Source of the DNA: a virus
IMG/VR virus record: IMGVR_UViG_3300044811_000010
Location: 1-64,000 of that record
Reading direction: 5' to 3' (one strand)
Length of the DNA stretch: 64,000 nt
The first letter of the stretch is position 1, and every line of letters begins with the position of its first letter. The position numbers and the translations under genes are program-made. The notes below the pieces were generated by a model that was not told the origin of the DNA, did no database searches, and was given only the letters and a program-made list of their open reading frames with translations. Shown here piece after piece: positions 12-60,943 of the stretch.

Positions 12-17
12 TACACT
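12..17 (+). promoter_or_regulatory. -10 box of leaderless promoter for the LAGLIDADG gene
   Basis: TACACT preceded by TGC; six bases separate it from ATG 24. Confidence 0.5.
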
Positions 18-23
18 ATGTGC

Positions 24-359
24 ATGACCACGGCAGAGAAGGCGTATATCGCAGGGATCATCGACGGCGAAGGCTGGATGGGCCTTGTGTCTGATGGGAA
101 GGGACGAAACCGGCGACCTCAGATCGAGGTTGAATCCACCGACAGGGAACTTACTCTCTGGCTACATGAGAAGGCAGGTGGTTACAACCCCCGGAGTAGG
201 GAGCCCAGGAACGACCGGCAGAAGGCCATCCACCGCTGGCGAGTCGGCGGGCCGAAGGCCAAGCGACTGCTCGTAGAGGTACTGCCGTACATCGTGATCG
301 AGCGGCGCAGGATACGGGCGATGGAGCTGCTTGGGCACCGGACGGGGCTGGAAAACTAA
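24..359 (+). CDS. LAGLIDADG-type homing endonuclease, single motif
   Basis: Small 111-residue protein with one LAGLIDADG-like motif (AGIIDGEG, residues 10-17) and a basic remainder. Single-motif members of this family act as homodimers that cut DNA; others are RNA maturases. I chose ATG 24 over ATG 18 because a -10 box TACACT (12-17) ends six bases before it, the leaderless arrangement seen at many genes here. No intron or intein is recognisable nearby, so it looks free-standing. Family call is fairly safe; activity is inferred. Confidence 0.7.
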   Translation: MTTAEKAYIAGIIDGEGWMGLVSDGKGRNRRPQIEVESTDRELTLWLHEKAGGYNPRSREPRNDRQKAIHRWRVGGPKAKRLLVEVLPYIVIERRRIRAMELLGHRTGLEN

Positions 360-425
360 AGTGGTACGAAGCCCAGAGGCTCATAGTGGTACATCGCCTG
401 CCGGTGGACAAGACGTAGCACGCGC

Positions 426-431
426 TACGAT
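426..431 (+). promoter_or_regulatory. -10 box of leaderless promoter
   Basis: TACGAT ends six bases before ATG 438. Two further GTGGTAC motifs lie upstream at about 361 and 386. Confidence 0.5.
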
Positions 432-437
432 GTGCCT

Positions 438-881
438 ATGCCTCAGCTCTCTCTCCGCGCCCGGCGCGAACTCGCACGCGGCTTCAACTACCGCGACATC
501 AAGGCCATCGGCAACCGGTACTTCTGGGGACTGGGCAACCGCGCTGTGCTGCAGACGGCGCTCGGCACGCCCAACGCGGACCTCTACTTCTACGCGAGGA
601 CTCCCGGCACGGCCGGGAACTCCATCCGGGTTCGGATCGTTGTTGCTGGCAACAGCACGCCGCTCAGCGTGGTCGTTGCAGGCTCGGACATCACGGTGAA
701 CTCGGCGACCGACTCCGGCGGAGCAGCGACCTCGACAGCCCGAGACGTTGTCCGGGCCATCAACTTCGACAACAAGGCCGGCGGCGCTGGGCTTCTCGTG
801 CATGCACAGCACGCGCCCGCGAACGACGGCACCGGGGTAGTCTCCGCGCTGGCTTACACGAACCTCGCCGGCGCTGTCTAA
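438..881 (+). CDS. Small virion-like beta-rich protein
   Basis: 147 residues. The N-terminal ~35 residues are basic. The rest (PGTAGNSIRVR, then VVAGSDITVN and TSTARDVVRAIN) resembles the beta-sandwich segments repeated in phage tail-sheath and other virion surface proteins. The role is therefore probably structural, although it sits far from the head and tail modules at 13-38 kb. Start at ATG 438 rather than GTG 432, from the -10 box six bases upstream. I do not recognise a named family. Confidence 0.55.
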   Translation: MPQLSLRARRELARGFNYRDIKAIGNRYFWGLGNRAVLQTALGTPNADLYFYARTPGTAGNSIRVRIVVAGNSTPLSVVVAGSDITVNSATDSGGAATSTARDVVRAINFDNKAGGAGLLVHAQHAPANDGTGVVSALAYTNLAGAV

Positions 882-894
882 CAGGCGCCTCCGC

Positions 895-923
895 TTGACT
901 TAGACTCCCAGTAGTGGTACGAT
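895..923 (+). promoter_or_regulatory. Sigma70-type promoter
   Basis: -35 TTGACT (895-900), 17-bp spacer, extended -10 TGG-TACGAT (918-923). Best consensus match in the window. It drives the gene at 1007 through a leader of about 75 nt, and possibly the RNA array downstream. Confidence 0.7.
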
Positions 924-1006
924 CCTTGGGTCGCTGGCGCTACGCGCACTACGTCCGGCTCAGACACGGCAGCGGCTTCTCTTCCCCAACCGAAGGAGGC
1001 TCTACC

Positions 1007-1231
1007 ATGCAGCTCACCAACCGGCATCCTCGCCCGGCCGCTCTCGCGTCAGAACTCGCGGACGCTCAGGCGAAGCACAACGCGGAGGTCGCCGCCTCCA
1101 AGCAGCGACTAGCCGACAAGCGGGACTGGGTCGTTCAGCGGGCGACGGATCGAGTGCAGGCTGTTCGCGAGCTTCAGCGTGACCTGAAGACCGAAGAGCA
1201 GGCGCTCAGCGATCTGATCAAGGCCGCGTAG
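1007..1231 (+). CDS. Small coiled-coil protein
   Basis: 74 residues, almost entirely charged helix from residue 14 (alternating Ala/Glu/Lys/Arg/Gln heptads), so a coiled coil is likely. Start set at ATG 1007 because GAAGGAGG lies seven bases upstream; a longer in-frame extension from 914 lacks any such signal. It lies just before the first RNA array. No family recognised. Confidence 0.6.
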   Translation: MQLTNRHPRPAALASELADAQAKHNAEVAASKQRLADKRDWVVQRATDRVQAVRELQRDLKTEEQALSDLIKAA

Positions 1232-1251
1232 CTGATAGGCTACGGTGTGTA

Positions 1252-1325
1252 GGGCCGACGTTGGAGGGCAGAACGGGTAAACGGAAACGCCCCGGCTGTC
1301 GAGGGTTCGACTCCCTCTCGGTCCA
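1252..1325 (+). tRNA. Irregular tRNA-like element, anticodon unclear
   Basis: A seven-pair acceptor (1252-1258 with 1318-1324, including G3:U70), discriminator A1325 and a perfect T-arm (1301-1317, loop TTCGACT) are clear. The 42 nt between them is the normal length but does not fold into a standard D-arm plus anticodon arm. CGTT/AACG could form a D-stem, and CGGG/CCCG would enclose a 13-nt loop. It may be a decayed or modified tRNA, possibly alanine-chargeable through G3:U70. Confidence 0.4.
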
Positions 1326-1327
1326 TC

Positions 1328-1386
1328 GGGGATTACAGGCATCGACGCGCCTAGCGCGGACGTGGGTTCGACTCCCACAGTCTCCA
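1328..1386 (+). ncRNA. Minimal tmRNA-like tRNA domain without mRNA part
   Basis: 59 nt. The acceptor GGGGATT (1328-1334) pairs with AGTCTCC (1379-1385) including G3:U70, the alanine identity pair, followed by discriminator A1386. The T-arm is 1362-1378. Where a tRNA has its D-arm there is an unpaired stretch GGCATCGAC, close to the D-loop signature of tmRNA, and GGAC precedes the T-stem as in tmRNA. A four-pair stem CGCG/CGCG with loop CCTAG replaces the whole P2, tag and pseudoknot part. Could instead be an armless tRNA. Confidence 0.5.
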
Positions 1387-1388
1387 CT

Positions 1389-1681
1389 GCAAGGCAGTAC
1401 AGACGGCCGCGCGGTCCCCTGCTCAGGTAAGGCACCGTGAGGAAGGTCGAGGCATCGCGCCCCGCCACATTGGGGAGGACGAGGGGCAAGAGGGAGGGCT
1501 TAGGCCCGCTATGACCTCAACTGCGGTCAAGCGATGCGATCCCTGAAGCGCCGGCGAGTGGCAGCCGGACTGGTGGGAGCGGCGGTAGCGAGCAATCGCC
1601 CGCTAGAGCCTAGGCTCTAAGAAGGATGGTCGTCACCGGCACAGGCCGGCACAGAACCTCGCCTATCGGACTGACTTGCAT
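1389..1681 (+). ncRNA. rnpB: RNase P RNA (phage-encoded ribozyme)
   Basis: Catalytic RNA that trims tRNA 5' leaders. Both conserved ends are present: GAGGAAGGTCGAGGC (1439-1453, CR-I) and ACAGAACCTCGCCTATCGG (1651-1669, CR-V). Pairing supports the fold. P1: 1389-1398 with 1670-1679, ten pairs. P2: GACGGCC (1402-1408) with GGTCGTC (1628-1634). P4: CGAGG (1448-1452) with CCTCG (1657-1661), where E. coli has CCGGG/CCCGG, a compensated change. At about 293 nt it is shorter than the ~377-nt E. coli RNA, so the specificity domain is probably reduced. It begins two bases after the preceding tRNA-like element. The protein subunit is not seen here, so host RnpA may be used. Confidence 0.85.
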
Positions 1682-1704
1682 CTGTCAACGAAGTATGCTA
1701 GAGT
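1676..1704 (+). promoter_or_regulatory. tRNA-array promoter 1
   Basis: -35 TTGCAT (1676-1681), 17-bp spacer, -10 TAGAGT (1699-1704). The same layout and similar spacer recur at 9604-9632 before the third tRNA array. The -35 overlaps the 3' end of the RNase P RNA. Confidence 0.7.
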
Positions 1705-1713
1705 TCTTCGAAC

Positions 1714-1762
1714 GCCGCAGAGGTTGGCTCTGTAGGAGGTTTGAATCCTCCGTGCGGCTCCA
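1714..1762 (+). ncRNA. 49-nt mini tRNA-like element with encoded CCA
   Basis: Begins about ten bases after the -10 of promoter 1, close to the predicted transcript start. Stem GCCGCA (1714-1719) pairs with TGCGGC (1753-1758), then T1759 and an encoded CCA. A perfect T-arm (GGAGG, loop TTTGAAT, CCTCC) is present. Only one other hairpin (AGAG/CTCT) replaces both D-arm and anticodon arm. It may be a tRNA relic or a processed mimic. Confidence 0.4.
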
Positions 1763-1835
1763 GGGGGTGTAGCTCTAACGGTAGAGCGCCTGCCTTGCAA
1801 GCAGAGGGTTGTGGGTTCGAATCCCATCTCCTCCA
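1763..1835 (+). tRNA. tRNA-Ala(TGC)
   Basis: 73 nt; loop CTTGCAA reads TGC. The G3:U70 pair agrees with alanine identity. No encoded CCA. Confidence 0.93.
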
Positions 1836-1863
1836 CTTGGGGAGTCTTCGGGCTCCCCGCCAA

Positions 1864-1935
1864 GCGCCGCTAACTCAGCGGGAGAGTGCCACGGTGACAA
1901 CGTGGAAGTCGCAAGTTCGATTCTTGCGCGGCGCA
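1864..1935 (+). tRNA. tRNA-Val(GAC)
   Basis: 72 nt; perfect acceptor GCGCCGC/GCGGCGC; stem CCACG/CGTGG with loop GTGACAA. No CCA. The spacer before it (1840-1858) holds a small hairpin GGGAG/CTCCC. Confidence 0.93.
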
Positions 1936-1941
1936 CTTCAT

Positions 1942-2014
1942 GGCCCTGTAGCTCAGCGTGTAGAGCGTCCGGTTTACACCCGGCAGGTCGTAGGTTCGAA
2001 TCCTACCAGGGCCA
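1942..2014 (+). tRNA. tRNA-Val(TAC)
   Basis: 73 nt; acceptor GGCCCTG/CAGGGCC; loop TTTACAC reads TAC; no CCA. Confidence 0.92.
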
Positions 2015-2019
2015 CTCAT

Positions 2020-2096
2020 GGGACAGTATCCCCTCCGTCTGATAAGCGGTAGAAAGGGTAGCTGGTAACACGAGGGTTCAACTCCTTCCTGTCCCA
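2020..2096 (+). tRNA. Irregular tRNA-Ile(GAT)-like element with displaced D-arm motif
   Basis: Acceptor GGGACAG/CTGTCCC, T-arm (2072-2088) and discriminator A2096 are normal. An anticodon-like hairpin TCCGT-CTGATAA-GCGGT (loop reads GAT, isoleucine) follows the acceptor after only seven bases, so no D-arm lies before it. A D-arm-like sequence (GTAGCTGGTAACAC) occurs after it, inside a 21-nt variable region. If functional it would supply the only Ile(GAU) isoacceptor of the set. Confidence 0.45.
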
Positions 2097-2100
2097 CTCC

Positions 2101-2173
2101 GCAGCGGTAGCTCAATTGGTAGAGCACCACCTTGCCATGGTGGATGTCGCGAGTTCGAATCTCGTCCGCTGCT
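2101..2173 (+). tRNA. tRNA-Gly(GCC)
   Basis: 73 nt; acceptor GCAGCGG/CCGCTGC, stem CCACC/GGTGG, loop TTGCCAT; no CCA. Confidence 0.93.
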
Positions 2174-2176
2174 TAC

Positions 2177-2249
2177 GCCTCCGTAACTCAAATGGCTAGA
2201 GGCCCGGCTCTTACCCGGTGCGATGCGGGTTCGATTCCTGCCGGGGGTA
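2177..2249 (+). tRNA. tRNA-Lys(CTT)
   Basis: 73 nt; acceptor GCCTCCG/CGGGGGT with G:U pairs; loop CTCTTAC reads CTT; no CCA. Confidence 0.9.
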
Positions 2250-2253
2250 CTTC

Positions 2254-2326
2254 GCTCGCATGGCGCAAATGGCAGCGCACTCCCTTGGTATGGGAGAGGT
2301 TCTGAGTTCGAGTCTCAGTGTGAGCT
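2254..2326 (+). tRNA. tRNA-Thr(GGT)
   Basis: 73 nt; acceptor GCTCGCA/TGTGAGC; stem CTCCC/GGGAG, loop TTGGTAT; no CCA. Confidence 0.92.
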
Positions 2327-2327
2327 T

Positions 2328-2365
2328 CGGTGGGAAATGTCGGCCGTAAGGCTGGGCGCCCATCG
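2328..2365 (+). other. Structured spacer, tRNA-like double stem without T-arm
   Basis: CGGTGGG pairs with CCCATCG (one G:U), enclosing a second hairpin CGGCC-GTAA-GGCTG. It fills the gap between two Thr tRNAs. No T-loop, so not a tRNA; possibly a relic or processing element. Confidence 0.35.
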
Positions 2366-2369
2366 GTAC

Positions 2370-2437
2370 GCCTCGCCATCAGGAGATGGCCTGTCCCTTG
2401 TAAGGACGGAGGCTGGGTTCGAGTCCCAGGCGAGGCT
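2370..2437 (+). tRNA. tRNA-Thr(TGT), short D-arm
   Basis: 68 nt; acceptor GCCTCGC/GCGAGGC, loop CTTGTAA. The D-arm is only CATC-AGGA-GATG, with no GG loop. No CCA. Confidence 0.85.
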
Positions 2438-2441
2438 CTTC

Positions 2442-2508
2442 GCCGGACGATCAGGGATCAGCCGTCTTTCGTAAGGACGGCAGACGAGTTCGATTCTCGT
2501 GTTCGGCT
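2442..2508 (+). tRNA. tRNA-Thr(CGT), short D-arm
   Basis: 67 nt; acceptor GCCGGAC/GTTCGGC, stem CGTCT/GGACG, loop TTCGTAA. Minimal D-arm GATC-AGG-GATC. No CCA. Confidence 0.83.
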
Positions 2509-2511
2509 TAC

Positions 2512-2584
2512 GCAGGTGTGTTCACAACGGCATGATGCTGGCCTTCCAAGCCATGCGATGAGGGTTCGACTCCCTTCACCTGTT
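2512..2584 (+). tRNA. tRNA-Gly(TCC)
   Basis: 73 nt; acceptor GCAGGTG/CACCTGT, stem TGGC/GCCA, loop CTTCCAA. Followed by an encoded CCA at 2585-2587, which almost all the others lack. Confidence 0.88.
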
Positions 2585-2596
2585 CCAAGGTTGTAG

Positions 2597-2658
2597 GTCA
2601 CCACGACCGCTGACTCCCGCGCGCATAAAGACGTAAGGCGCGGGGCGAGGACGGTGAC
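2597..2658 (+). other. Structured spacer RNA between tRNA-Gly and tRNA-Phe
   Basis: The 82-base spacer forms an outer stem GTCACC/GGTGAC around a strong inner stem CCCGCGC/GCGCGGG with a ~16-nt loop. It lacks tRNA features and hammerhead core bases. Function unknown. Confidence 0.4.
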
Positions 2659-2669
2659 TGCGTCTATGC

Positions 2670-2742
2670 GGCTTCGTAGCTCAGTCGGTAGAGCAGGCCC
2701 CTGAAAAGGGTCGTGTCGCAGGTTCGAATCCTGCCGAAGCCA
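2670..2742 (+). tRNA. tRNA-Phe(GAA)
   Basis: 73 nt; acceptor GGCTTCG/CGAAGCC; loop CTGAAAA; no CCA. Last gene of the first array. Confidence 0.94.
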
Positions 2743-2746
2743 CTTC

Positions 2747-2786
2747 AACGCCCGCTAGAGAGGTCCGATCCCTCCTAGCGGGCGTT
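2747..2786. terminator. Bidirectional terminator hairpin
   Basis: Perfect 12-bp inverted repeat AACGCCCGCTAG / CTAGCGGGCGTT between the convergent ends of the first RNA array and the leftward operon ending at 2794. Confidence 0.75.
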
Positions 2787-2793
2787 CTGCGTT

Positions 2794-2994
2794 CTAGGGC
2801 TTGAGGAACGTGACGACGAGTCCGATGGTGTAAGGATCTCGTTGGTTGCCACCTTCCAGCGCTGAAGCAGACGACAGTGCGTAGCCAGCGTCTGCTGCAG
2901 CCTTCAGCTCGGCGACGAACGTCTCGGTGTCTGACAGAGACGCCGGGATTGGGGTCTTCACCGTCACGGTGTCCACGCGCTTGACCTCGATCAT
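2794..2994 (-). CDS. Small hypothetical protein
   Basis: 66 residues beginning MIEVKRVDTV. Start at ATG 2994 because it overlaps the stop of the upstream gene (ATGA); the longer frame reaching 3081 would run through that gene. Predicted beta strand, then an Ala-rich helix, then a beta strand (TIGLVVTFLKP). No family recognised. Last gene of a leftward operon starting at 3946. Confidence 0.6.
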   Translation of the reverse strand: MIEVKRVDTVTVKTPIPASLSDTETFVAELKAAADAGYALSSASALEGGNQRDPYTIGLVVTFLKP

Positions 2995-3203
2995 CCGAGC
3001 ACCAGTACGCTGTTGGCGTTCTTGACCACCGAGACGTGGCCTAGATCGTTCTCGATCCTGATGCGATAGACGACGTGCCACTGGCTGACGCGCTTAGGCT
3101 CCCCAGGGTCGAGGACGACGCCGGGAACGACTTGGCCGCTCTGGTTGTAAGCAACCCTAGCGCCCCTCGTGATCTCAGTACCTCGGCTGTCGCAGACGAT
3201 CAT
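2991..3203 (-). CDS. Small beta-rich hypothetical protein
   Basis: 70 residues, compact and beta-rich (VAYNQSGQVVPGVVLD, WHVVYRIRIEND). It overlaps its upstream and downstream neighbours by four bases each, so it is translationally coupled between the phosphoesterase and the terminal small gene. The sequence suggests an SH3-like or KOW-like barrel, but that is only an impression. Confidence 0.6.
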   Translation of the reverse strand: MIVCDSRGTEITRGARVAYNQSGQVVPGVVLDPGEPKRVSQWHVVYRIRIENDLGHVSVVKNANSVLVLG

Positions 3204-3946
3204 CGGGATTCACCGGCTGCCTTGGCTGCCGCCTTGCGGCCGGCGGCGTCATCGAGCTGCTCCTGCGTCGTCTCGGGGTAGACACCTAGGATCGCAGCGT
3301 CGAGCAGCAGCTTGAGGTTGACGGGGCGGTACTTCGTCTGCTCGACCGAGAGGTTGATGTGGTTGCGGACGAACGGAACGAAGGCGTCCCGGCTGTAGCC
3401 GTTGTTGTGGATGTGGCCGTGGACGCGGATGTGGTCGGCGGACATGGGCCCGTCCTCGGCGTCGTTCCATGCGTAGTGCGAGAAGCTGACTTGGTGCTGG
3501 CAGTCGGCCGGGTCGCCGAGTGGGTCGTCAAACCCGCGCACGCGCAGGTACGGCTCCTCTGCGTGGACTTCGAGGCCCAGCGCGAACGGCCGCACGACTT
3601 GGAAGCCTGACTTCTTGTAGAAGCTGTAGGGCTGCTTGTCGTGGTTGCCGATGATCAGCAGCTTACGGGCGCCGGTCAGCTCCTTGGCGATCAGGTGCTT
3701 GAAGCGGCCGTTGCCTCGGTAGCTGAGGTCGCCAAGGTGGAGCACCGTAGCGTCGTCAGGCACTTGGGCTCGCCATTCGGCGATCATCACTTGCTCGTGG
3801 TCTTCCGGCCTATGGCAGAAGCCGACGATGTTGTCGTGGCCGAAGTGCGTGTCGGAGACGATCCAAGTGTTCTCTGGGTCGATGTCGTCACGGAACTTCA
3901 TGGCCGGGCGCGATTCGGACGCGCTGCCGGTTCTAGAGTTGCTCAT
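3200..3946 (-). CDS. Calcineurin-like metallophosphoesterase
   Basis: 248 residues with the metal-binding motifs in order: SDTHFGH (31-37), GDLSY (72-76), GNHDK (100-104), a SHYAWN histidine block and GHIHN. Phage members of this family hydrolyse phosphoesters, but the substrate cannot be told from sequence. ATG 3946 lies six bases after a -10 box, so the transcript is probably leaderless; ATG 3901 is an alternative start with no Shine-Dalgarno site. First gene of a three-gene coupled operon. Confidence 0.85.
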   Translation of the reverse strand: MSNSRTGSASESRPAMKFRDDIDPENTWIVSDTHFGHDNIVGFCHRPEDHEQVMIAEWRAQVPDDATVLHLGDLSYRGNGRFKHLIAKELTGARKLLIIGNHDKQPYSFYKKSGFQVVRPFALGLEVHAEEPYLRVRGFDDPLGDPADCQHQVSFSHYAWNDAEDGPMSADHIRVHGHIHNNGYSRDAFVPFVRNHINLSVEQTKYRPVNLKLLLDAAILGVYPETTQEQLDDAAGRKAAAKAAGESR

Positions 3947-3952
3947 ACGAGA

Positions 3953-3958
3953 ATCGTA
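3953..3958 (-). promoter_or_regulatory. -10 box of leaderless promoter
   Basis: TACGAT with upstream TGG on the minus strand, six bases before ATG 3946. Two copies of GTGCTAATC lie further upstream (about 3972-4001), possible operators. Confidence 0.55.
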
Positions 3959-4026
3959 CCACTAACGGGCCTGATTAGCACGCTTTCGCGAGCGATTAGC
4001 ACGATCACCGGCCCGGAATCGAAGAT

Positions 4027-4059
4027 AAAGTGGCGGTTAGAGGGTCTAACCGCAACTTT
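4027..4059 (-). terminator. Terminator of the NAD salvage operon
   Basis: 15-bp inverted repeat with one mismatch (AAAGTGGCGGTTAGA / TCTAACCGCAACTTT) around GGG, just after the stop at 4068 in the leftward direction. Confidence 0.65.
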
Positions 4060-4067
4060 ACTGGCAC

Positions 4068-4409
4068 TCAGAACCCGAGTTCGTCAAGGCTGGCGCGTGG
4101 GTCGGAATCTAGGACCACTTCTTCGCCGCTGCAGCCCCAAGGCTCGGCGCAGGGGACGTGATGTGGGCACGGACGGGCAACGCGCTTGTAGCCCTTCGGA
4201 ATGCTGCGCGCCCTAGGAGGCGTCGGCTTGTCGATGAACACGCCGAACTCCTTGAAGCAGTCGGCGCAGAGGTCGTACTTGCGATCCGGGTACAGCCCAG
4301 GGTCCTGCTGACGGCCGTTTGCCTTCAGGCCGGGCACGTCGATGGTGCGGCGACCGCTGCGGATTTCCCTACCGCAGCGGTCGCACTCGATGATGTTCCT
4401 GACGCCCAT
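4068..4409 (-). CDS. Zinc-ribbon protein of the NAD salvage operon
   Basis: 113 residues. ECDRCG (8-13) and LCADC (47-51) form a CxxC...CxxC zinc ribbon. A second cysteine/histidine cluster (CPHHVPCAEPWGC) follows around residues 80-92. The gene overlaps the NAMPT stop by one base and is the last of the operon, so it is made together with the two NAD enzymes. No function is known to me; metal binding is inferred. Confidence 0.65.
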   Translation of the reverse strand: MGVRNIIECDRCGREIRSGRRTIDVPGLKANGRQQDPGLYPDRKYDLCADCFKEFGVFIDKPTPPRARSIPKGYKRVARPCPHHVPCAEPWGCSGEEVVLDSDPRASLDELGF

Positions 4410-5812
4410 CAGAGCGCCGCCCTCTCACGGATCTGGTCGAACGTCTGCTCGTTGACGAGCTGGCCGTCCTTGAACACCGTCTGCAGCGCGTCGCACTCGT
4501 CGTTGTCGAGCCACACGCCTTCCCTGTCCGTGTGGAAGGTGTTGTGCTGCAGGTTCTGGATCAGTGTCAAGCGGCCCTTCTTCGACGCCTTGGTGGAGTC
4601 CAAGGGCTTCTTGTACACGTCGTGCCACTCGCCGTCGCGTTGCTGAGCGCTGCTCTTGAACGCGAAGCGGCAGGTGTCGCGGTTGAGGCGCTGCAGGAGG
4701 CCTCCGCCCATCCCGAACACGAGGTTCTCGGGGCTGAACCCCTGCAACATAGCGCGGTTGACGATCTTCTCGATGCCATGCTCGTCAATCCCGTCGCCCC
4801 ACAGCAGCCGGACGTGCGGGTCGAGGACCCTGAATCCCTTAGGCGTCTGGGTTCCGCCGTAGTAGCTCCACAGCCGCTCCAAGAGCGCCGAGGTCAGGAG
4901 CTGCGGAGTCGGATGGTCGCGCGTGACCGAGTCCGGCCGCACGACGAACACGCCGTCGCGCGAGAGGATGCGGTCCTTGAACGTCGTCCCGACCCGATCC
5001 ACGAACTCGTAGATGTCGTAGGAGTCCGCGACGACGCTGAGGATGCCGCCGGGGTGGTTGTCGAGAAGCCGCGACGTGATCGCGGCCTCTCCATCACGGC
5101 CGAGCGAGGTCATGACCGAGTGCTCGGTCGCCGGAACGCTGAACGCCAGCGTGTTGGGGTCAGCGCCATAGTCACGGATTGCCAGAAGCAGCGCCGGCAG
5201 CGTGTCAGCGCCAACGAAGCTCGTCAAATGGCCCGCCACGGCAATCGCGGCGGCCTCATGGCCCGCTGCACCCCGGTATCCGAAGTCGTGGAGCATGAAT
5301 TGAAGCCCATCGAGGCCCGATCCGGCCGCAGTGAGGCGTTCGGCGAGCATTCGCTTGACCGAGCGGCTCCTAGTGGCAACCGTCGTCGGGTACCAGACGT
5401 GCATGAGCAGCGATTCGAGCGCGTTGGTGAGCCAGAACGCATCGGGGTCGGTGTTCTCGACCGCCATCAGCACGTTCCCGACCGGGACAACGGACCCCTC
5501 GGGCACGGCCTTGATGTGCAGCGGCAGACGCCCTCCATGCCGGTCGATGATCGTCTCCCAGCCCTTGTAGTTGAAGACCGAAGCGTCCCCGAAGTGGACC
5601 CGAGCCAGCTCGAAGGCTTCACTGAGGTTCTCGTAGGTCACGCGAGGGATGGTCTTCAGGATGGACTGCAGGCCGAAGAACACCGTCTCGTCGTACTCCG
5701 AACCCTGACGGGCTTCGAGGTAGCTGTAGACGCCGGTCGTGTTGGCCGGGTACTGATTCCAGTGGCCCAGCTTGTAACTGTCGGTTGCGAGGATCGGATT
5801 GTCGAGCATCAT
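4409..5812 (-). CDS. nadV: Nicotinamide phosphoribosyltransferase (NAMPT)
   Basis: 467 residues, normal length for the family. It joins nicotinamide and PRPP to give nicotinamide mononucleotide. The N-terminus DSYKLGHWNQYP and the later blocks HDFGYRGAAGHEAA, RPDSVTRDHPTPQ and FGMGGGLLQRLNRDT match NAMPT active-site regions. AAAGGAG eight bases before ATG 5812 sets the start. It lies three bases after the NMN adenylyltransferase gene in the same operon, so together they rebuild NAD+ from nicotinamide in two steps. Confidence 0.95.
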   Translation of the reverse strand: MMLDNPILATDSYKLGHWNQYPANTTGVYSYLEARQGSEYDETVFFGLQSILKTIPRVTYENLSEAFELARVHFGDASVFNYKGWETIIDRHGGRLPLHIKAVPEGSVVPVGNVLMAVENTDPDAFWLTNALESLLMHVWYPTTVATRSRSVKRMLAERLTAAGSGLDGLQFMLHDFGYRGAAGHEAAAIAVAGHLTSFVGADTLPALLLAIRDYGADPNTLAFSVPATEHSVMTSLGRDGEAAITSRLLDNHPGGILSVVADSYDIYEFVDRVGTTFKDRILSRDGVFVVRPDSVTRDHPTPQLLTSALLERLWSYYGGTQTPKGFRVLDPHVRLLWGDGIDEHGIEKIVNRAMLQGFSPENLVFGMGGGLLQRLNRDTCRFAFKSSAQQRDGEWHDVYKKPLDSTKASKKGRLTLIQNLQHNTFHTDREGVWLDNDECDALQTVFKDGQLVNEQTFDQIRERAAL

Positions 5813-5814
5813 GG

Positions 5815-6885
5815 CTACGACTCCTTTCGATTGAGGTAGTCCACCAGCATCCCCATCAGCGGACGGTGCTCGGGGACAAGGTTGTTGTAGAACTGCTCTC
5901 GGGAGACTGGGTTGCCGAGTTCCTTCCCGTACTTCACGTCAGGCAGGTCAATCCACTTGACCTCTTCGATGTCGTCGCCCGGCGTGGGGCGGCCGTGGGT
6001 GTACTGCGCCGTGAACAGCATCGTCTTGATGCAGTCCGGCTCGTTGCGGTAGCGCCAGTCATCGACTCGAAGCGACCCGACGTAGCGCACATCCTCGACG
6101 TTCAGGCTCGTCTCTTCCTGAACCTCACGCTTGGCGTCGGCCTCGAAGCTGTCGGAGCGCGGGTCGGAGAAACCGCCAATGAAGCGATAGAGCGTCTCGT
6201 TTGGCTTGCGGCCGAGCAGAAGCTGCAAGGGCTTCTCCGTCGCATAGAAGGCTGCGGCCTCGTCTCGATGCACCGGACACGCAGTCCGTGGCTGGCAGCT
6301 TCGACAGTCGATCCACGACTGCGAAGCCTTGCGCTCGCGCGAGGGAACGTCCTTGAGAATCGCCACGTCTACCGTCGTGTAGGCGGTCGGGAAGCGGGCC
6401 TGCGACGCCCAGATGACGCCGGCACGGAACTCGGGGCTGGACTTAGCCCGGCTGCGGGCGATGTCCTTGCGCTGCGCGCGGCCGGAGTAGAACGTGGTCT
6501 GCGTCAGCTCCTGCGTCGGGTGGTTGCCCGTGTAGTGGCTGATGAAGGAGTCGCGGCCGCCGTAGAGGACGACGCTCTGGCCGGGAGCGACGAGGTTGGC
6601 GATGTTGTCGTCAAGAACGTGCGACCACGCGCGGTCGTTGTTCAAGTCCTTGACGTACAGGACGTTGGCCTCGGGGAACTCCGCGAGGATCATCTGCTTG
6701 CGCGCCTCGAAGTCGAGCGGATTGTTCGTGGAGACGGAAAGCGGCGAAAGGCCGAGGAAGATGATGACCTTGTCGTGCCGGTCGCAGACGTACTTGATCA
6801 GCTCCCTATGAGCGTTGTGCAGCTCATGGACCTGGAATCGCCCTACCAGTACCCCTACGTCGTACTGCTTCTCTGTTGGCTGCAT
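5815..6885 (-). CDS. nadM: Bifunctional NMN adenylyltransferase / Nudix hydrolase
   Basis: 356 residues. N-terminal nucleotidyltransferase: GRFQ (15-18) with HNAH (23-26), plus the block PLSVSTNNPLDFEARKQM. C-terminal Nudix domain: box starting GGFSDPRSDSFEADAKREV with QEET. The first domain makes NAD+ from NMN and ATP. The Nudix part in relatives cleaves ADP-ribose or similar, which could remove products of NADase defences. I chose ATG 6885 (GAAGGAGG upstream) over ATG 6921, which has no ribosome site. Confidence 0.9.
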   Translation of the reverse strand: MQPTEKQYDVGVLVGRFQVHELHNAHRELIKYVCDRHDKVIIFLGLSPLSVSTNNPLDFEARKQMILAEFPEANVLYVKDLNNDRAWSHVLDDNIANLVAPGQSVVLYGGRDSFISHYTGNHPTQELTQTTFYSGRAQRKDIARSRAKSSPEFRAGVIWASQARFPTAYTTVDVAILKDVPSRERKASQSWIDCRSCQPRTACPVHRDEAAAFYATEKPLQLLLGRKPNETLYRFIGGFSDPRSDSFEADAKREVQEETSLNVEDVRYVGSLRVDDWRYRNEPDCIKTMLFTAQYTHGRPTPGDDIEEVKWIDLPDVKYGKELGNPVSREQFYNNLVPEHRPLMGMLVDYLNRKES

Positions 6886-6942
6886 CAGGCGCAAACCTCC
6901 TTCTATGTCCGGGCCGCGCATCGGTGCGACGGCTCTACGAGA

Positions 6943-6948
6943 ACCGTA
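6943..6948 (-). promoter_or_regulatory. Extended -10 box of the NAD salvage operon
   Basis: TGG-TACGGT on the minus strand, about 57 bases before ATG 6885. Here a leader with a strong Shine-Dalgarno site follows, unlike the leaderless genes. Confidence 0.5.
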
Positions 6949-6974
6949 CCACAGGGCGGCGACGAGCGCAAGGG

Positions 6975-6980
6975 TAGAGT
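6975..6980 (+). promoter_or_regulatory. -10 box of leaderless promoter
   Basis: TAGAGT ends six bases before GTG 6987. Confidence 0.45.
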
Positions 6981-6986
6981 GGGAGG

Positions 6987-7391
6987 GTGGCTTTTCTCCG
7001 AGTAGTCAGAAAGAACTGGGTAGTGATTCTACTTCTGTTCGCCATCGTCTCGTCCTTCTTGGCGTCGATGCAGCAGACGCGCGCCGACACGGCTCAAGTT
7101 CGATCCAAGGCAATCGCCCTCTGCACCATCGACAACCAACGCGCCGTGCTGGTCATCACCTTCAAGTTCTCGGTGGCGAGGGCGGCGGACAAGCGCGGCG
7201 AGCACGCGGCGGCTGCTCACTTCCGGGCTCTTGGAGATAGTGGGCTGGCGTTGATCCCACTTGCCCCGGAAGATCAAGCCGAGCGAGCCCACCTAGCCGA
7301 TGTCATTCCGCAGGGAGGGCACTTCGTGCTGCCGCAGAAGGCGAAGGACGCGATCCGCGCGGGATGCGTGGATTCCTACCGCGCCAACTAG
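6987..7391 (+). CDS. Membrane-anchored small protein
   Basis: 134 residues, GTG start fixed by the -10 box six bases upstream. Residues 10-27 (NWVVILLLFAIVSSFLAS) form one transmembrane segment after a basic N-terminus, so the rest is probably outside the membrane. Two cysteines (CTIDN and AGCVDSYRAN) may pair. A similar plan (anchor, C..N, distal AxC) occurs in the protein at 60944. Function unknown. Confidence 0.6.
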   Translation: MAFLRVVRKNWVVILLLFAIVSSFLASMQQTRADTAQVRSKAIALCTIDNQRAVLVITFKFSVARAADKRGEHAAAAHFRALGDSGLALIPLAPEDQAERAHLADVIPQGGHFVLPQKAKDAIRAGCVDSYRAN

Positions 7392-7406
7392 GTCAGAGAA
7401 GCGTGC

Positions 7407-7412
7407 TATAGT
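7407..7412 (+). promoter_or_regulatory. -10 box of second tRNA array
   Basis: TATAGT, ten bases before tRNA-Tyr; the -35 region is weak. Confidence 0.5.
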
Positions 7413-7421
7413 CCCTGACGC

Positions 7422-7499
7422 GCTGCCGCGCATAGGCGAGCAAGGCCGGCTGTAACCCGGCGTCCTCTGGACTTGCAGGTTCGACTCCTGACGGCAGCA
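7422..7499 (+). tRNA. tRNA-Tyr(GTA)
   Basis: 78 nt, class II with variable arm GTCC-TCT-GGAC; stem GCCGG/CCGGC, loop CTGTAAC. No CCA. One mismatch at the base of the T-stem. Confidence 0.9.
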
Positions 7500-7503
7500 C
7501 TTC

Positions 7504-7587
7504 GGAAGGCTCCGCTTGGTGGCAGGCAACTCGGTTCGAACCCGAGGGCGGCGTTTCTCGTTGGGGGTTCGACTCCTCAGCCTTCCG
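7504..7587 (+). tRNA. tRNA-Ser(CGA)
   Basis: 84 nt, class II; acceptor GGAAGGC/GCCTTCC, stem CTCGG/CCGAG, loop TTCGAAC. Same T-stem mismatch as the Tyr tRNA. No CCA. Confidence 0.87.
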
Positions 7588-7591
7588 CTTC

Positions 7592-7663
7592 GTCGTAGTG
7601 CTGGGAGTGGCGACCAGCCGGGCTGCAACCCCGAGAACGTCGGTTCGAATCCGACCTACGACT
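7592..7663 (+). tRNA. tRNA-Cys(GCA)
   Basis: 72 nt; acceptor GTCGTAG/CTACGAC, loop CTGCAAC, no CCA. Confidence 0.92.
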
Positions 7664-7666
7664 TAC

Positions 7667-7753
7667 GGAGAGGACCCGGCTGGATCAGGAGCTTGCCCGC
7701 TAAGCAAGTAGCGCGTCCTAGATGTGTTCGGGGTTCGAGTCCCCGTCTCTCCG
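7667..7753 (+). tRNA. tRNA-Ser(GCT)
   Basis: 87 nt, class II; stem CTTGC/GCAAG, loop CCGCTAA. Position 33 is C instead of the near-universal U. The 5' half is nearly identical to the next Ser tRNA. No CCA. Confidence 0.88.
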
Positions 7754-7758
7754 CTCAC

Positions 7759-7844
7759 GGAGAGGACCCGGCTGGATCAGGAGCATCCCTGGAAAGGATG
7801 TGCGGCGGTCACGCGTCTTCAGGGTTCGAGTCCCTGTCTCTCCG
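7759..7844 (+). tRNA. tRNA-Ser(GGA)
   Basis: 86 nt, class II; stem CATCC/GGATG, loop CTGGAAA; no CCA. Recent duplicate of the Ser(GCT) gene, judging by the shared acceptor and D-arm. Confidence 0.92.
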
Positions 7845-7997
7845 CTTGATCGCTCCAACGGCTGCCCCGAGTAGCGCGACGATCATCACCAGTGCCGCAA
7901 GTGCCGCCACTACGACAGCCGCGTAGATGACGATGAAGGGCAGCAGGATCCCCGCGACGAGCGCGATTCCGGTGCCCAAGCAGCCTCCGTCAGACAT
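7809..7997 (-). CDS. Small two-helix membrane protein overlapping tRNA-Ser
   Basis: 62 residues. Residues 9-50 are almost wholly hydrophobic (ALVAGILLPFIVIYAAVVV, then AALVMIVALLGAAVGAI), giving one long or two short transmembrane helices before a charged tail. The last 36 bases run antisense through tRNA-Ser(GGA). It follows the CCA-adding enzyme by 34 bases. The overlap lowers confidence. Confidence 0.5.
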   Translation of the reverse strand: MSDGGCLGTGIALVAGILLPFIVIYAAVVVAALAALVMIVALLGAAVGAIKRRDRDSNPEDA

Positions 7998-8031
7998 CAG
8001 CCGCAGCAGACTCCACTGCAGGCGCCGCAGC

Positions 8032-9564
8032 TCACGCGAGCGCCTCGGCCCGCGTGAGCTGCCACTCCCGCGACATCGTCTGCTCGGTGGGCTGGCAGAC
8101 GACATCGTCCAGCACGGCGTTGAGGATCTCGCCGATCTTGCGGCCGTCCGCGCCGATGGCGCGCACGTCATGGCCGTTGATCTTCAGGTCCCTCGGAGAC
8201 GTGGGGACGTTGTCCTTCTCCGCCTCACGGCGCAGCAGTTCCATCCGGCTGATCTGCTCGATGTGACCCTTGTTGGGCTTGCCCTTGCCAGTCAGGTCGC
8301 ACATGCGGTGCAGGAACAGGTCGGCCAGCAGCTCGTCCCCGAACTGCACACGCATCCGGCGGACCTTCGAGCCCTTGAGCTTGCCGTCGACGGTGACCAT
8401 GTGATTGCGAATGAGCAGGCGCACGTCCTCGCGCAGACCGTTGCCTGCGTTCAGGCGCCGAGCGGTCTTGTTCCAGATGCGGGCGCCCGCAACCTCGTGG
8501 TCCTCCGTGGCGACCATCATCGGCGCGCCGCTAGCGACAGAGCGGGACGCGGTCCCGTCCTGAGCGTAGTAGTGCTTGCGTCCGTCCTTCCCAATCCACG
8601 CCGTCTCAGGCTTGCCCGCGTCGTGGAACAGCAGGGCCATGCGGACGCGCAGCGGCGCGTCGACGTGCGTAGCCGTCGTCAGAGCAGCGAACGTGTGCTC
8701 GTCGGTGGTCAGGTCGTGGTAGCGCGAGCCCTGATCGAAGCCGATCATCGGAGCCAGCTCAGGCAGCAGTGTGGCGAGAACGCCAGTGTCGAGCGCCAGC
8801 CTCAGCGCCTTGACCGGCTCGTCGCCCATCAGCAGCTTGCACAGCTCTTCCAGCACGGTTCCGGACGCGTAGCCATTGGCGCTCAGGCCGTTTACAGCGT
8901 CAGCGTGCTCACGCATCTGGTCGAGCGTGTTGCTCGACAGGTCGTAGCCAAGCGTCGAAACGAAGCGCAGAGCACGCAGCGTGCGCAGCGGGTCGTCGCG
9001 GAACGAATCCGGGTGAGTGGTGCGGATGATCTTATGGCTCAGGTCGTACAGGCCGCAGTTCGTCGGGTCCACGACGTTCTCGACCAGTGCCCCGCCCGAC
9101 ATGGTGGTCAACGAAGACATGCCGGCAGTCGGATCCACGATCTTGTAGAGAGCGTTGAACGTGAAGTCACGGCGCACGGCGTCTTCGTCCAGCCGCAGGT
9201 TCGGGTCAACCACGATGTCAAACGCGCGATGCACGTTCTCGCCGGGGGCGGGCGCGCGAGGGCGCTCCGTGCGCGGCAGGACGACTTCGATCAGACCCAT
9301 GCCGCGCGCGGCGACCCGCCATCCGGCCTGCCGACCATCGCGCAGCACCAGCGGGGAAACGACGTTGGACTTGTTCGCGGGGTCGTACCGAATCGCGGCG
9401 TCCTTGAGCGCAATGCCCAGCTTCGCCAGTCCGACGCCTCGGATCATGTAGTCAGCGTCCTTGACCTTGCGGCCGATCAGTTCGTCTCGAACGGAGCCGC
9501 CGACGCGGTAGGCTTCGAAGCCCAGGCCGGCGATGAAAGTGTCTGTCCGCTCGATGTACGCCAT
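8032..9564 (-). CDS. cca: CCA-adding tRNA nucleotidyltransferase
   Basis: 510 residues. Adds or repairs the 3' CCA end of tRNA. The nucleotidyltransferase head has GGSVRD (22-27) and the catalytic DAD (36-38). A central basic RNA-binding part follows, then an HD domain with LLFHDAGKPETA around residue 305. ATG 9564 is chosen because a -10 box (TACGTT) ends six bases before it; the longer frame to 9609 crosses that promoter. It lies between two tRNA arrays whose genes almost all lack CCA, so these tRNAs depend on such an enzyme. Confidence 0.93.
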   Translation of the reverse strand: MAYIERTDTFIAGLGFEAYRVGGSVRDELIGRKVKDADYMIRGVGLAKLGIALKDAAIRYDPANKSNVVSPLVLRDGRQAGWRVAARGMGLIEVVLPRTERPRAPAPGENVHRAFDIVVDPNLRLDEDAVRRDFTFNALYKIVDPTAGMSSLTTMSGGALVENVVDPTNCGLYDLSHKIIRTTHPDSFRDDPLRTLRALRFVSTLGYDLSSNTLDQMREHADAVNGLSANGYASGTVLEELCKLLMGDEPVKALRLALDTGVLATLLPELAPMIGFDQGSRYHDLTTDEHTFAALTTATHVDAPLRVRMALLFHDAGKPETAWIGKDGRKHYYAQDGTASRSVASGAPMMVATEDHEVAGARIWNKTARRLNAGNGLREDVRLLIRNHMVTVDGKLKGSKVRRMRVQFGDELLADLFLHRMCDLTGKGKPNKGHIEQISRMELLRREAEKDNVPTSPRDLKINGHDVRAIGADGRKIGEILNAVLDDVVCQPTEQTMSREWQLTRAEALA

Positions 9565-9570
9565 GGGAGA

Positions 9571-9576
9571 AACGTA
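9571..9576 (-). promoter_or_regulatory. -10 box of leaderless cca promoter
   Basis: TGG-TACGTT, with TTGCGC 17 bases upstream as -35; six bases to ATG 9564. Confidence 0.6.
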
Positions 9577-9603
9577 CCACATTGGGCTTCCGGGCGCAAG
9601 TTC

Positions 9604-9632
9604 TTGCACATGTCACGAAGATGTGCTAGAGT
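9604..9632 (+). promoter_or_regulatory. tRNA-array promoter 3
   Basis: -35 TTGCAC (9604-9609), 17 bp, -10 TAGAGT (9627-9632). Near copy of promoter 1 at 1676. Confidence 0.7.
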
Positions 9633-9640
9633 CCCATCTC

Positions 9641-9680
9641 TGGTCAGCGCTCCGTCGGCGACGGCGGGTAGCGGGGCCAG
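9641..9680 (+). other. Structured leader of third tRNA array
   Basis: Between promoter and first tRNA: nested pairing CTGG/CCAG, CGCT/AGCG and a perfect CCGTC-GGC-GACGG hairpin. No T-loop. It occupies the place held by the mini tRNA-like element after promoter 1. Confidence 0.4.
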
Positions 9681-9685
9681 GACAC

Positions 9686-9757
9686 TGAGGAGTAGTGTAA
9701 TGGCAGCACCGGAGTCCTTGAAACTTCGTAGTGCGGGTTCGAGTCCCGCCTCCTCAT
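9686..9757 (+). tRNA. tRNA-Gln(TTG)
   Basis: 72 nt beginning with U1 as usual for Gln; loop CCTTGAA, so position 33 is C. No CCA. Confidence 0.86.
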
Positions 9758-9761
9758 TCAC

Positions 9762-9833
9762 TGCGGAATGGTGTAACGGCAGCATGGCGGGTTCTGAGCC
9801 CGTTCGATCTAGGTTCGAATCCTAGTTCCGCAG
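9762..9833 (+). tRNA. tRNA-Gln(CTG)
   Basis: 72 nt; acceptor TGCGGAA/TTCCGCA, loop TTCTGAG, no CCA. Confidence 0.92.
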
Positions 9834-9838
9834 CTCAC

Positions 9839-9909
9839 TGGCGTGTAGCTCAAGGGCAGAGCCTCCGGTTGTTACCCGGCGGATGAGGGTTCGAATCCTT
9901 CCATGCCAG
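9839..9909 (+). tRNA. tRNA-Asn(GTT)
   Basis: 71 nt; acceptor TGGCGTG/CATGCCA, loop TTGTTAC, no CCA. Confidence 0.91.
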
Positions 9910-9914
9910 CTCAT

Positions 9915-9988
9915 CAGCGTGTGGCGCAGTCTGGTAGCGCTCTTTTCTGGGGAAAATGAGGTCGCAGGTTCAAATCCTGCCACGCTGA
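9915..9988 (+). tRNA. tRNA-Pro(GGG)
   Basis: 74 nt starting C1 (Pro-like); loop CTGGGGA, no CCA. Confidence 0.9.
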
Positions 9989-9994
9989 CTTCTC

Positions 9995-10067
9995 GCAGCC
10001 ATGGTCTAGTGGTCATGATGCCGGCCTTTCAAGCCGGACGACGAGGGTTCGAATCCCTCTGGCTGTA
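9995..10067 (+). tRNA. tRNA-Glu(TTC)
   Basis: 73 nt; stem CCGGC/GCCGG, loop CTTTCAA, no CCA. Confidence 0.92.
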
Positions 10068-10071
10068 CTAC

Positions 10072-10144
10072 GGCGCGTTGGGGTAACGGTTAGCCTCTCA
10101 GCTTCTCAAGCTGCTGGATACGAGTTCGAATCTCGTACGCGCTA
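10072..10144 (+). tRNA. tRNA-Glu(CTC)
   Basis: 73 nt; acceptor GGCGCGT/ACGCGCT, loop TTCTCAA, no CCA. Confidence 0.9.
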
Positions 10145-10149
10145 CTCAT

Positions 10150-10221
10150 CGGGATCAAGTGTTTATGGCTGCACCGGCCCCTCGGACGGGTCAAGACGGA
10201 GTTCGAATCTCCGGTTCCCGA
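10150..10221 (+). tRNA. tRNA-Pro(CGG)
   Basis: 72 nt starting C1; stem GGCCC/GGGTC, loop CTCGGAC. One U:U mismatch in the acceptor. No CCA. Confidence 0.84.
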
Positions 10222-10225
10222 CTTC

Positions 10226-10308: not shown

Positions 10309-10314
10309 CTGCAT

Positions 10315-10399: not shown

Positions 10400-10403
10400 C
10401 TAC

Positions 10404-10488: not shown

Positions 10489-10492
10489 CTAC

Positions 10493-59743: not shown

Positions 59744-59865
59744 CAGGAGCGCGTCGAGCCGCCGCCGTAGCGGCGTTCGTAGGCCGCCTTCTTAGCCAGC
59801 TCGTCAGCGAGGATCGTGACCTGCTTGATCAAGCTGATGATGGCGTGCTCTAGAGCCATGCTCAT
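59743..59865 (-). CDS. Tiny helical protein
   Basis: 40 residues. ATG 59865 overlaps the upstream stop, and its stop overlaps the helicase start (TGATG). Helical (MALEHAIISLIKQVTILADE). Unknown. Confidence 0.5.
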   Translation of the reverse strand: MSMALEHAIISLIKQVTILADELAKKAAYERRYGGGSTRS

Positions 59866-60080
59866 TCGACGCGCTCGGCTTCCATGGCAGAGATGTTCTG
59901 GGGGTTGACGTAGAGGATCTTCACGGGTAGTCCTTCGAGCTTGACGCGCTCTTCAGCGATAAGCGCGGGGATTCCGTACGTCTCCTCGTTGACGAGGCTG
60001 ATGTAGTTGATCCCCGAAAACTCGATGGGCTCCCCTGTTTCGTCAGCGGCGGGAAAGACCCGTACGTTGATCGTGTTCAT
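59862..60080 (-). CDS. Hypothetical small protein
   Basis: 72 residues, beta-rich (NVRVFPAADETG, NYISLVNEETYG, PVKILYVNPQNI). AAAGGAGC upstream of ATG 60080. Unknown. Confidence 0.55.
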   Translation of the reverse strand: MNTINVRVFPAADETGEPIEFSGINYISLVNEETYGIPALIAEERVKLEGLPVKILYVNPQNISAMEAERVE

Positions 60081-60119
60081 GGGTAATGGTGCTCCTTTCG
60101 GGGCGAGTGATGTTGTAGA

Positions 60120-60190
60120 TGGGCCTCCGGCTTACACGACGCCGCCACATAGGACGCACGCCCCTCCATCCTCATCCAACCGGAGGCCCA
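60120..60190 (-). promoter_or_regulatory. Long-loop inverted repeat in leader of 60080 gene
   Basis: TGGGCCTCCGG pairs with CCGGAGGCCCA (11 bp) around 49 bases that read no gene. Could end the upstream transcript or act as a leader element. Otherwise the gap 60081-60221 is empty. Confidence 0.45.
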
Positions 60191-60221
60191 CCAAGAACGG
60201 TAGCAGACGATGCCGTCTGCG

Positions 60222-60551
60222 TCAAACCTTGGGAGGCTTGCGCGGGTTGAATCCTGCGGCCCTCGCGAGGACGCCAAGCCGCGTCCGGAGGTTCTTCACG
60301 TCCTGCTCGGCGGCCTTGAACTGCCGGCCCTGAGGGGTGCCCTCCCAGCCCGGCGCGTCCGCATCCTCAGCACGTAGTAGCTGCCGCTCCATCTCGGCGT
60401 TGCGGGCCATCACGTCGGCGCTTGCGAGCGAGTCCGTGAGCAGGTCCACCAGCGCCAGCGACTGCCTTGCGGCGCGCTCGGCGACTTCGAACGGGTCGCC
60501 GTCGAAGTCGCGAGGGTCGCTGATGGAGAAGTTCTTGATCCTTGGTCCCAT
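60222..60551 (-). CDS. Helical hypothetical protein
   Basis: 109 residues from ATG 60551, chosen for TAGGAGG seven bases upstream. FEVAERAARQSLALVDLL and QFKAAEQDVKNLRTRLGVL are long helices. First gene of the leftward early block. Unknown. Confidence 0.6.
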   Translation of the reverse strand: MGPRIKNFSISDPRDFDGDPFEVAERAARQSLALVDLLTDSLASADVMARNAEMERQLLRAEDADAPGWEGTPQGRQFKAAEQDVKNLRTRLGVLARAAGFNPRKPPKV

Positions 60552-60585
60552 TTCACTGCCTCCTAAGTCCGTAGACTGAGTGTTG

Positions 60586-60771
60586 ATGTCTGCGCCTGAA
60601 GCCAAGAAGAGGTCGTTGTTCCCATGGTTCTATGCGACGCGTGGGCTGGGTGTAGTGTTCTTGCTCTACGGGTTGCTTCATGACCACTCCGGAGATCGGG
60701 GCACCATCATCCTCACGGGCGCTGGCCTGATCGGAGTCGACAAGGTGGCTCGTTCAGAACCCGGAAAGTAA
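60586..60771 (+). CDS. Small membrane protein
   Basis: 61 residues from ATG 60586, eight bases after TAGACT. YATRGLGVVFLLYGLLH and GTIILTGAGLIGVDKV suggest two membrane segments. First of five rightward membrane-protein genes divergent from the replication block. Confidence 0.55.
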   Translation: MSAPEAKKRSLFPWFYATRGLGVVFLLYGLLHDHSGDRGTIILTGAGLIGVDKVARSEPGK

Positions 60772-60775
60772 AGAC

Positions 60776-60925
60776 ATGGTCCCACAGGATTGCGAAGAAG
60801 TCAAGCGACGTGATGGTCACGCAGCATTGATCTCCTGGATTGAGTGCCATCCGCGCACGGGCTGGTACATCGCGGTCCTGACCACGCTGAACGTGGTCCT
60901 GAACCTTCTCGGCCTGTTCCACTGA
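60776..60925 (+). CDS. Small single-helix membrane protein
   Basis: 49 residues. Charged N-terminal half, then WYIAVLTTLNVVLNLLGLF, a membrane helix, at the C-terminus. Unknown. Confidence 0.5.
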   Translation: MVPQDCEEVKRRDGHAALISWIECHPRTGWYIAVLTTLNVVLNLLGLFH

Positions 60926-60930
60926 CACGA

Positions 60931-60936
60931 TAGACT
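60931..60936 (+). promoter_or_regulatory. -10 box of leaderless promoter
   Basis: TAGACT, seven bases before ATG 60944. Confidence 0.45.
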
Positions 60937-60943
60937 GGTACTG

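Follow-up and report, generated by a model that had tools for sequence, protein, structure and literature searches.

The 64,000-base window analysed here (64% GC), part of the 80,254 bases of IMG/VR record IMGVR_UViG_3300044811_000010, comes from a tailed siphophage in which, at the heads of many transcription units, a TAnnnT hexamer ends 6 or 7 bases ahead of the start codon. The reading that fits best, and that the sequence supports well, is leaderless transcription from a −10 element in a fixed position relative to the start codon. Probably, some 17–19 unit heads are transcribed by a host sigma-A-type RNA polymerase that would read TAnnnT and place the transcription start (+1) on the start codon, giving leaderless mRNAs. 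The promoters fall into two classes, A and B, the second of which would depend on a phage activator of the helix-turn-helix (HTH) type.

The position lock and its conservation

The sequence-only reading had listed 18 starts with an element ending 6 or 7 bases upstream, and the lock is borne out at every one of them: with d as the number of bases between the end of TAnnnT and the start codon, 14 sites have d=6 and four have d=7. Across the 217 in-frame ATG or GTG candidate starts of the 106 called genes, TAnnnT occurs nine times at a spacing of 6, seven times at 7, and between zero and two times at every other spacing up to 30. These 16 sites compare with 2.15 ± 1.46, and a maximum of 7, in 400 dinucleotide-type shuffles of the upstream sequence. 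The literal TGNTANNNT-N6-RTG has 7 matches in the window where 0.66 are expected, a count reached in 0 of 100 shuffles, and TGNTANNNT-N7-RTG has one match, with 0.72 expected. Genes with leaders had been thought to carry strong Shine-Dalgarno (SD) sites, and an SD match of at least 5 bases is indeed found at 38 of the 92 other genes, compared with 1 of the 19 read as leaderless.

Two further sites lie beyond the earlier list, before the major capsid gene (start 19566, d=7) and the portal gene (start 13273, d=8). The weakest of the listed sites are those of 34316, 60944 and 24. The TAGGCT at 34303–34308 (+), with d=7 to ATG 34316, is possibly due to chance; the TAGACT at 60931–60936 (+), d=7 to ATG 60944, has neither TGn nor a box; and the TACACT with TGC at 12–17 (+), d=6 to ATG 24, lies at the record end with little context. 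The proposed extended form, TGnTAnnnT, was too broad a description, with a true TGn extension present at seven of the 18 sites and missing from the others. Nor is use of the signal genome-wide, as the minus-strand replication block (~43.6–70 kb) is almost free of such sites.

Relatives were sampled as 77 fetched loci with capsid relatives, plus all or most of several larger contigs. In those with diverged proteins the lock is kept at the same genes, though other upstream sequence changes. It is present in 16 of 20 orthologues of the gene starting at 12686, 15 of 29 for the portal gene, 12 of 27 for 15521, 25 of 40 for the protease gene and 21 of 28 for 24725. Smaller sets give 4 of 5 (26405), 5 of 7 (small terminase), 2 of 2 (28163), 2 of 3 (438), 3 of 3 (9564) and 1 of 3 (3946), while the listed start at 34316 keeps it in none of six. 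Inner genes lack the lock in every orthologue (26842, 0/23; 25441, 0/18; 28370, 0/22). In close relatives the spacing spectrum peaks at 61 and 65 sites for spacings 6 and 7 against about 10–40 elsewhere, and in mid-distance relatives at 94 and 68 against about 9–36. In far relatives, with less than 40% capsid identity, any peak at 7 is weak. Four actinophages were sampled; two of them have no 6/7 peak, and in the other two the sites are too few for a verdict. On the strength of this conservation and the missing SD sites, the earlier placement of +1 at the start codon stands as the best reading.

In Actinobacteria and Deinococcus-Thermus, leaderless genes can be recognised by a TAnnnT some 12 bases ahead of the start codon (Zheng et al. 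2011, PMC3160421). The sites described here resemble such TA-led genes in this spacing, in the absence of SD sequences and in high GC; they differ in belonging to a phage clade, in being concentrated at unit heads, and in having two upstream variants.

Two promoter classes and the TGTC box

The −35 element had been described as mostly absent. This holds for TTGACA at its usual place: no TTGACA-like element was found about 17 bases before the −10, and positions −24 to −17 from the first T of TAnnnT are nearly information-free in 71 aligned sites and two larger sets. It does not hold as a general statement, as G-n-C, counted at −14/−12 from the same T, is present at 10 of the 18 listed starts and forms part of a TGTC(A/G) box. 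The picture of a single class of extended −10 promoters lacking any upstream element, which had accompanied the claim about +1, does not hold either. Class A is an extended −10 of the form TGTGG-TACGnT, found before leftward genes and certain others of early type. Class B serves structural and morphogenesis genes and is mostly without TGn, having instead the TGTC(A/G) box, sometimes in a GnC version, 10 bases before TAnnnT. With locked sites aligned on the hexamer, the box occupies −15 to −11 from its first T. If +1 is the start codon, the box would lie at about −27 to −23, where the standard sigma-A promoter is not known to have a contact element.

Of 256 locked sites in the relatives, 40 have TGTC[AG] at −15, compared with a mean of 0.47 (maximum 3) at other offsets; in a control of 3830 other TAnnnT sites it occurs there 17 times against 8.2. 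Box and TG extension are mutually exclusive, with both present at 10 sites, the box only at 108, TG only at 33, and neither at 42 (odds ratio 0.12, p = 1.1e-8). The two are also divided by strand: TGTC[AG] is present at 40 of 151 sites on the structural-gene (late) strand and at none of 42 on the opposite strand, whereas GTGG-extended sites number 11 of 42 on the opposite strand and 1 of 151 on the late strand. The box is strongest in a mid-distance lineage (GCTGTCAC). A sister lineage (L015, L056, L058, L059, L061) has no box, and its locked sites use TGn instead, being TG-extended at 40 of 91 and carrying TGnC at 1 of 91. When a whole collection of viral contigs was scanned with a highly specific composite of the two elements, 4 matches resulted, against 13 for a control spaced two bases longer; the result is uninformative because the clade is a tiny fraction of the collection.

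In the window, the full TGTCR-N10-TAnnnT precedes the portal, protease-unit, capsid and small terminase genes. The predicted capsid promoter (19538–19558, +) consists of TGTCA at 19538–19542 and TAAGGT at 19553–19558, ahead of the ATG at 19566, and that of the portal gene (13244–13264, +) of TGTCG at 13244–13248 and TAGTCT at 13259–13264, ahead of the ATG at 13273. Before 18626 and the prohead protease unit (18598–18618, +) lie TGTCG at 18598–18602 and TAGGAT at 18613–18618, with d=7. The small terminase promoter is on the minus strand (42988–43008), with TGTCG at 43008–43004, TAGAAT at 42993–42988 and d=6 to ATG 42981. A further putative class B site at 28136–28156 (+) has CGTCA at 28136–28140 and TAGGCT at 28151–28156, with d=6 to GTG 28163. 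The GnC variant accompanies six plus-strand hexamers: TAACCT at 15509–15514 (d=6 to ATG 15521, encoding a conserved protein of 65 residues), TAGTAT at 26392–26397 (d=7 to ATG 26405), TACCAT at 21400–21405 (d=7 to ATG 21413), TACTAT at 40836–40841 (d=6 to GTG 40848), TACGAT at 426–431 (d=6 to ATG 438) and TAGAGT at 6975–6980 (d=6 to GTG 6987). The capsid gene of most relatives has a TGTCAC-type box upstream too, but at d=9–10. In L007, L005, L006 and L013 this box often lies within a short palindrome, such as GTGTCACAC or GTTGTCACAAC, and several of these loci have GGAG between the −10 and the capsid start.

Locked class A sites are found on the minus strand, all with d=6: TACGCT with a TGG extension at 12693–12698, before ATG 12686; TACTAT with a TTGTGG extension at 13049–13054, before ATG 13042; TACGTT after ATGTGG at 9571–9576, before ATG 9564 of the CCA-adding-type enzyme; and TACGAT after AGTGG at 3953–3958, before ATG 3946 of a phosphoesterase-like gene. 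Plus-strand sites with a similar extension, also at d=6, are the TGG-extended TACACT at 37886–37891 (ATG 37898) and the TGTGG-extended TAGCCT at 39377–39382 (GTG 39389). Other class A promoters, at 15724, 6948, 918 and 11100, lie away from any start lock. That at 15724–15729 (+), TGTGG-TACGCT, is followed by an ordinary leader and an SD site before gene 15761, a layout shared by L005, L007 and L008. The one at 11100–11180 (+), TTGTGG-TACGAT, lies just past the last tRNA gene and is followed by GC-rich sequence with no called gene on the same strand; its transcript is possibly a small RNA.

A candidate reader of the box and competing explanations

In the mechanism considered probable, class A promoters would be usable by the unmodified host holoenzyme. 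At class B a phage activator, most likely an HTH protein of 104 residues encoded at 43126–43440 (−) next to the small terminase gene, would bind the box and hold the sigma-A polymerase at the −10, recruiting it roughly as MotA does in phage T4, and the late genes would switch on as the protein accumulates. We infer this reading of the TGTC box from co-occurrence, gene position and predicted fold; the contact with polymerase and the division into early and late classes are likewise predictions.

A comparison of gene content between four box and three boxless genomes picked out the genes at 12360, 20918, 43126 and 50216 as present in 4/4 and 0/3. The product of 43126–43440 has weak matches to HTH families in Pfam and is 57–65% identical among box genomes. 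Its gene lies directly beside the small terminase gene in all five genomes inspected, namely the window and G001–G004, and none was found beside the small terminase gene of G006–G008. A profile search recovered the protein from 11 box-lineage records and gave no match in the five boxless genomes (G006–G010), although fragments lacking a match may not reach the gene. The AlphaFold model (predicted local distance difference test score, pLDDT, 79) has a helical HTH fold and a short tail that includes a strand. Late activators of the RinA/ArpU type are encoded beside the small terminase gene. The HTH gene shares with them this position and a small DNA-binding-type product; no sequence match was shown, and in the present phage the box stands in for the −35, its distance to the −10 being fixed.

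Several observations count against this assignment or against the wider reading. The genes at 12360, 20918 and 50216 have the same four-against-three pattern as the HTH gene, though 12360 is also found in the boxless L051 and L063 and so fits the box pattern less well. Foldseek matches of the HTH protein are weak and XRE-like only, and a weak match to phrog_836, annotated ‘late transcriptional activator’ (E 9.5e-5, 51 residues), involves a profile that also gives matches in all 14 control genomes. Both G014 and G016 have the HTH gene without a full TGTCR-N10-TAnnnT, with only GTCA variants at some sites. The loci were assigned to the box clade partly by looking at the sites, and the co-occurrence of HTH gene and box may reflect a single evolutionary loss. 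Lastly, the capsid promoter in most relatives stands 9–10 bases from the ATG with GGAG in between, so that a very short leader is possible there.

Ordinary sigma-A promoters of a host rich in leaderless genes, with TGTC recognised by a host factor or by the host polymerase itself, are an unlikely source of the whole pattern, although leaderless genes of Actinobacteria and Deinococcus-Thermus have TAnnnT some 12 bases ahead of the start as their standard signal (PMC3160421) and no phage sigma domain was found. The box goes with phage lineage and with strand, and in the sister subclade TGn takes its place. Among 84,980 species genomes a strong composite box pattern has 22 scattered matches, no matched genome bearing an actinobacterial title, and a loose composite has 1–2 matches per genome in three genomes of 2.8–4.7 Mb, compared with 3 sites in the 80-kb phage. 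Very doubtful is the opposite arrangement, in which a phage sigma of an unrecognised type would read TGTC and TAnnnT across an 11-base gap and transcribe the late genes without host sigma-A. The exact spacing kept between the two elements speaks for it, but class B shares its TAnnnT hexamer with class A and with the boxless relatives, and sigma-70 region 2 or 4 domains were unmatched in five phages (G000–G004) in a search whose controls gave matches. The corresponding search for a single-subunit phage RNA polymerase had no match, but no control profile gave one either, and it is not informative. Sigma-54 promoters were rejected because the conserved downstream element is TAnnnT; the sigma-54 consensus has GC at −12, which is not seen at these sites.

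There is a rather small chance that +1 varies, with short leaders or processing, and that the lock reflects selection keeping the −10 just outside coding sequence in a compact genome. The capsid promoters of relatives, with their GGAG, and the portal site of the window at 8 bases would suit such an explanation; the sharp peak at 6/7, which is the usual distance from −10 hexamer to +1, and the lack of SD sequences at locked sites argue against it. The idea that TGTC is only the T-rich tail of terminators abutting the promoters was rejected, and its probability is close to negligible: many class B sites do follow a GC hairpin, with TGnC in 31 of 70 hairpin sites, but of 186 sites that lack a strong hairpin, 42 likewise have TGnC at exactly −15, and it is not a feature of locked sites in the boxless subclade. 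Leaderless transcription by host polymerase, with an HTH activator at class B, remains the reading preferred here. Its extension to the whole clade of uncultured phages is more tentative, and falls somewhat short of an even chance: the HTH activator and TGTC box would turn on virion genes, mostly from start-fused promoters, and the sister lineage would have lost both and gained a TG-extended −10.

Known systems, the phage genome and significance

In T4 middle promoters a MotA box lies 12 ± 1 bases before the −10, sigma is appropriated by AsiA and MotA, and about half of the promoters also have TGn (PMC2988021). The promoters described here are similar in combining a sigma-70-type −10 with a phage-specific box that would replace the −35, in this case TGTCR placed 10 bases before the −10. 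They differ in box sequence, in serving structural (late-type) genes and in their predicted leaderless output, and no match to MotA or AsiA was seen among the proteins scanned. By analogy the layout can be called T4-middle-like; membership of the T4 system, whose defining feature is a box-bound activator touching sigma region 4 together with a co-activator, is not assigned, and the HTH protein is a candidate by co-occurrence. Middle and late promoters of Thermus phage P23-45, which involve gp39, are extended −10 promoters used by host polymerase (PMC7403470), and the present phage would resemble it in transcribing its genes in this way. In P23-45 (L119), the annotated starts at 38116, 33842 and 33442 (−) have TATTAT or TATTCT exactly 6 bases before the ATG, which may represent a small leaderless-type set in another phage. 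Unlike the present phage, P23-45 has no TGTC box and no overall 6/7 peak, and the DNA polymerases of the two are only about 25% identical.

The window encodes the tape measure, large terminase, major capsid, portal, prohead protease and tail tube proteins, and the phage also has a DNA polymerase, a NAMPT-like enzyme and 29 tRNA genes. The best matches of capsid and polymerase in an annotated phage set, at less than 30% identity, are largely actinobacteriophages, with no close relative; those of the polymerase also include P23-45. A search for a host via prophages found no relative of the capsid protein in the 84,980 bacterial and archaeal species genomes, and single-sequence searches with the large terminase, CCA-adding enzyme and helicase each gave no relatives.

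Functions for tRNA upkeep and supply include the CCA-adding-type enzyme (8032–9564, −), a PTH2 peptidyl-tRNA hydrolase (43612–44160, −) and the 29 tRNAs (1229–11093). Within the tRNA region lies an RNase P RNA-like gene (1391–1681, +), whose match to the Rfam model RNaseP_bact_a scores 32.4 bits (E 1.7e-8), where the curated cut-off is 100, and which contains the motifs GAGGAAGGTC and ACAGAACC. A counterpart in the relative G001 (L125 2570–2855) scores 54 bits (E 8.7e-14). An RNase P RNA encoded by a phage would, if true, be notable. Adjoining it at 1328–1389 (+) is a 62-base RNA matching both tmRNA ends, which form the tRNA-like domain, with 42.7–51.3 bits (gathering threshold 47); the mRNA part is absent.

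Viewed from sequence, the system appears to combine known kinds, namely leaderless TA-led genes and a T4-middle-like promoter layout. No report of leaderless promoters across such a phage genome was found in a partial coverage of the literature. Leaderless translation has been studied mainly in bacterial genomes, with phage examples scattered, and start-locked promoters at the heads of capsid, portal and packaging units would offer a compact model for the competition of leaderless mRNAs in infected cells. They also improve the calling of start codons in such phages. The TGTC box and HTH protein, if truly a pair, would be a further route by which a phage redirects host polymerase, replacing the −35 contact, for which the lineage lacking both box and HTH gene is a natural control. 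Should the clade-wide reading be true, one small protein would make the host polymerase produce late mRNAs in leaderless form.

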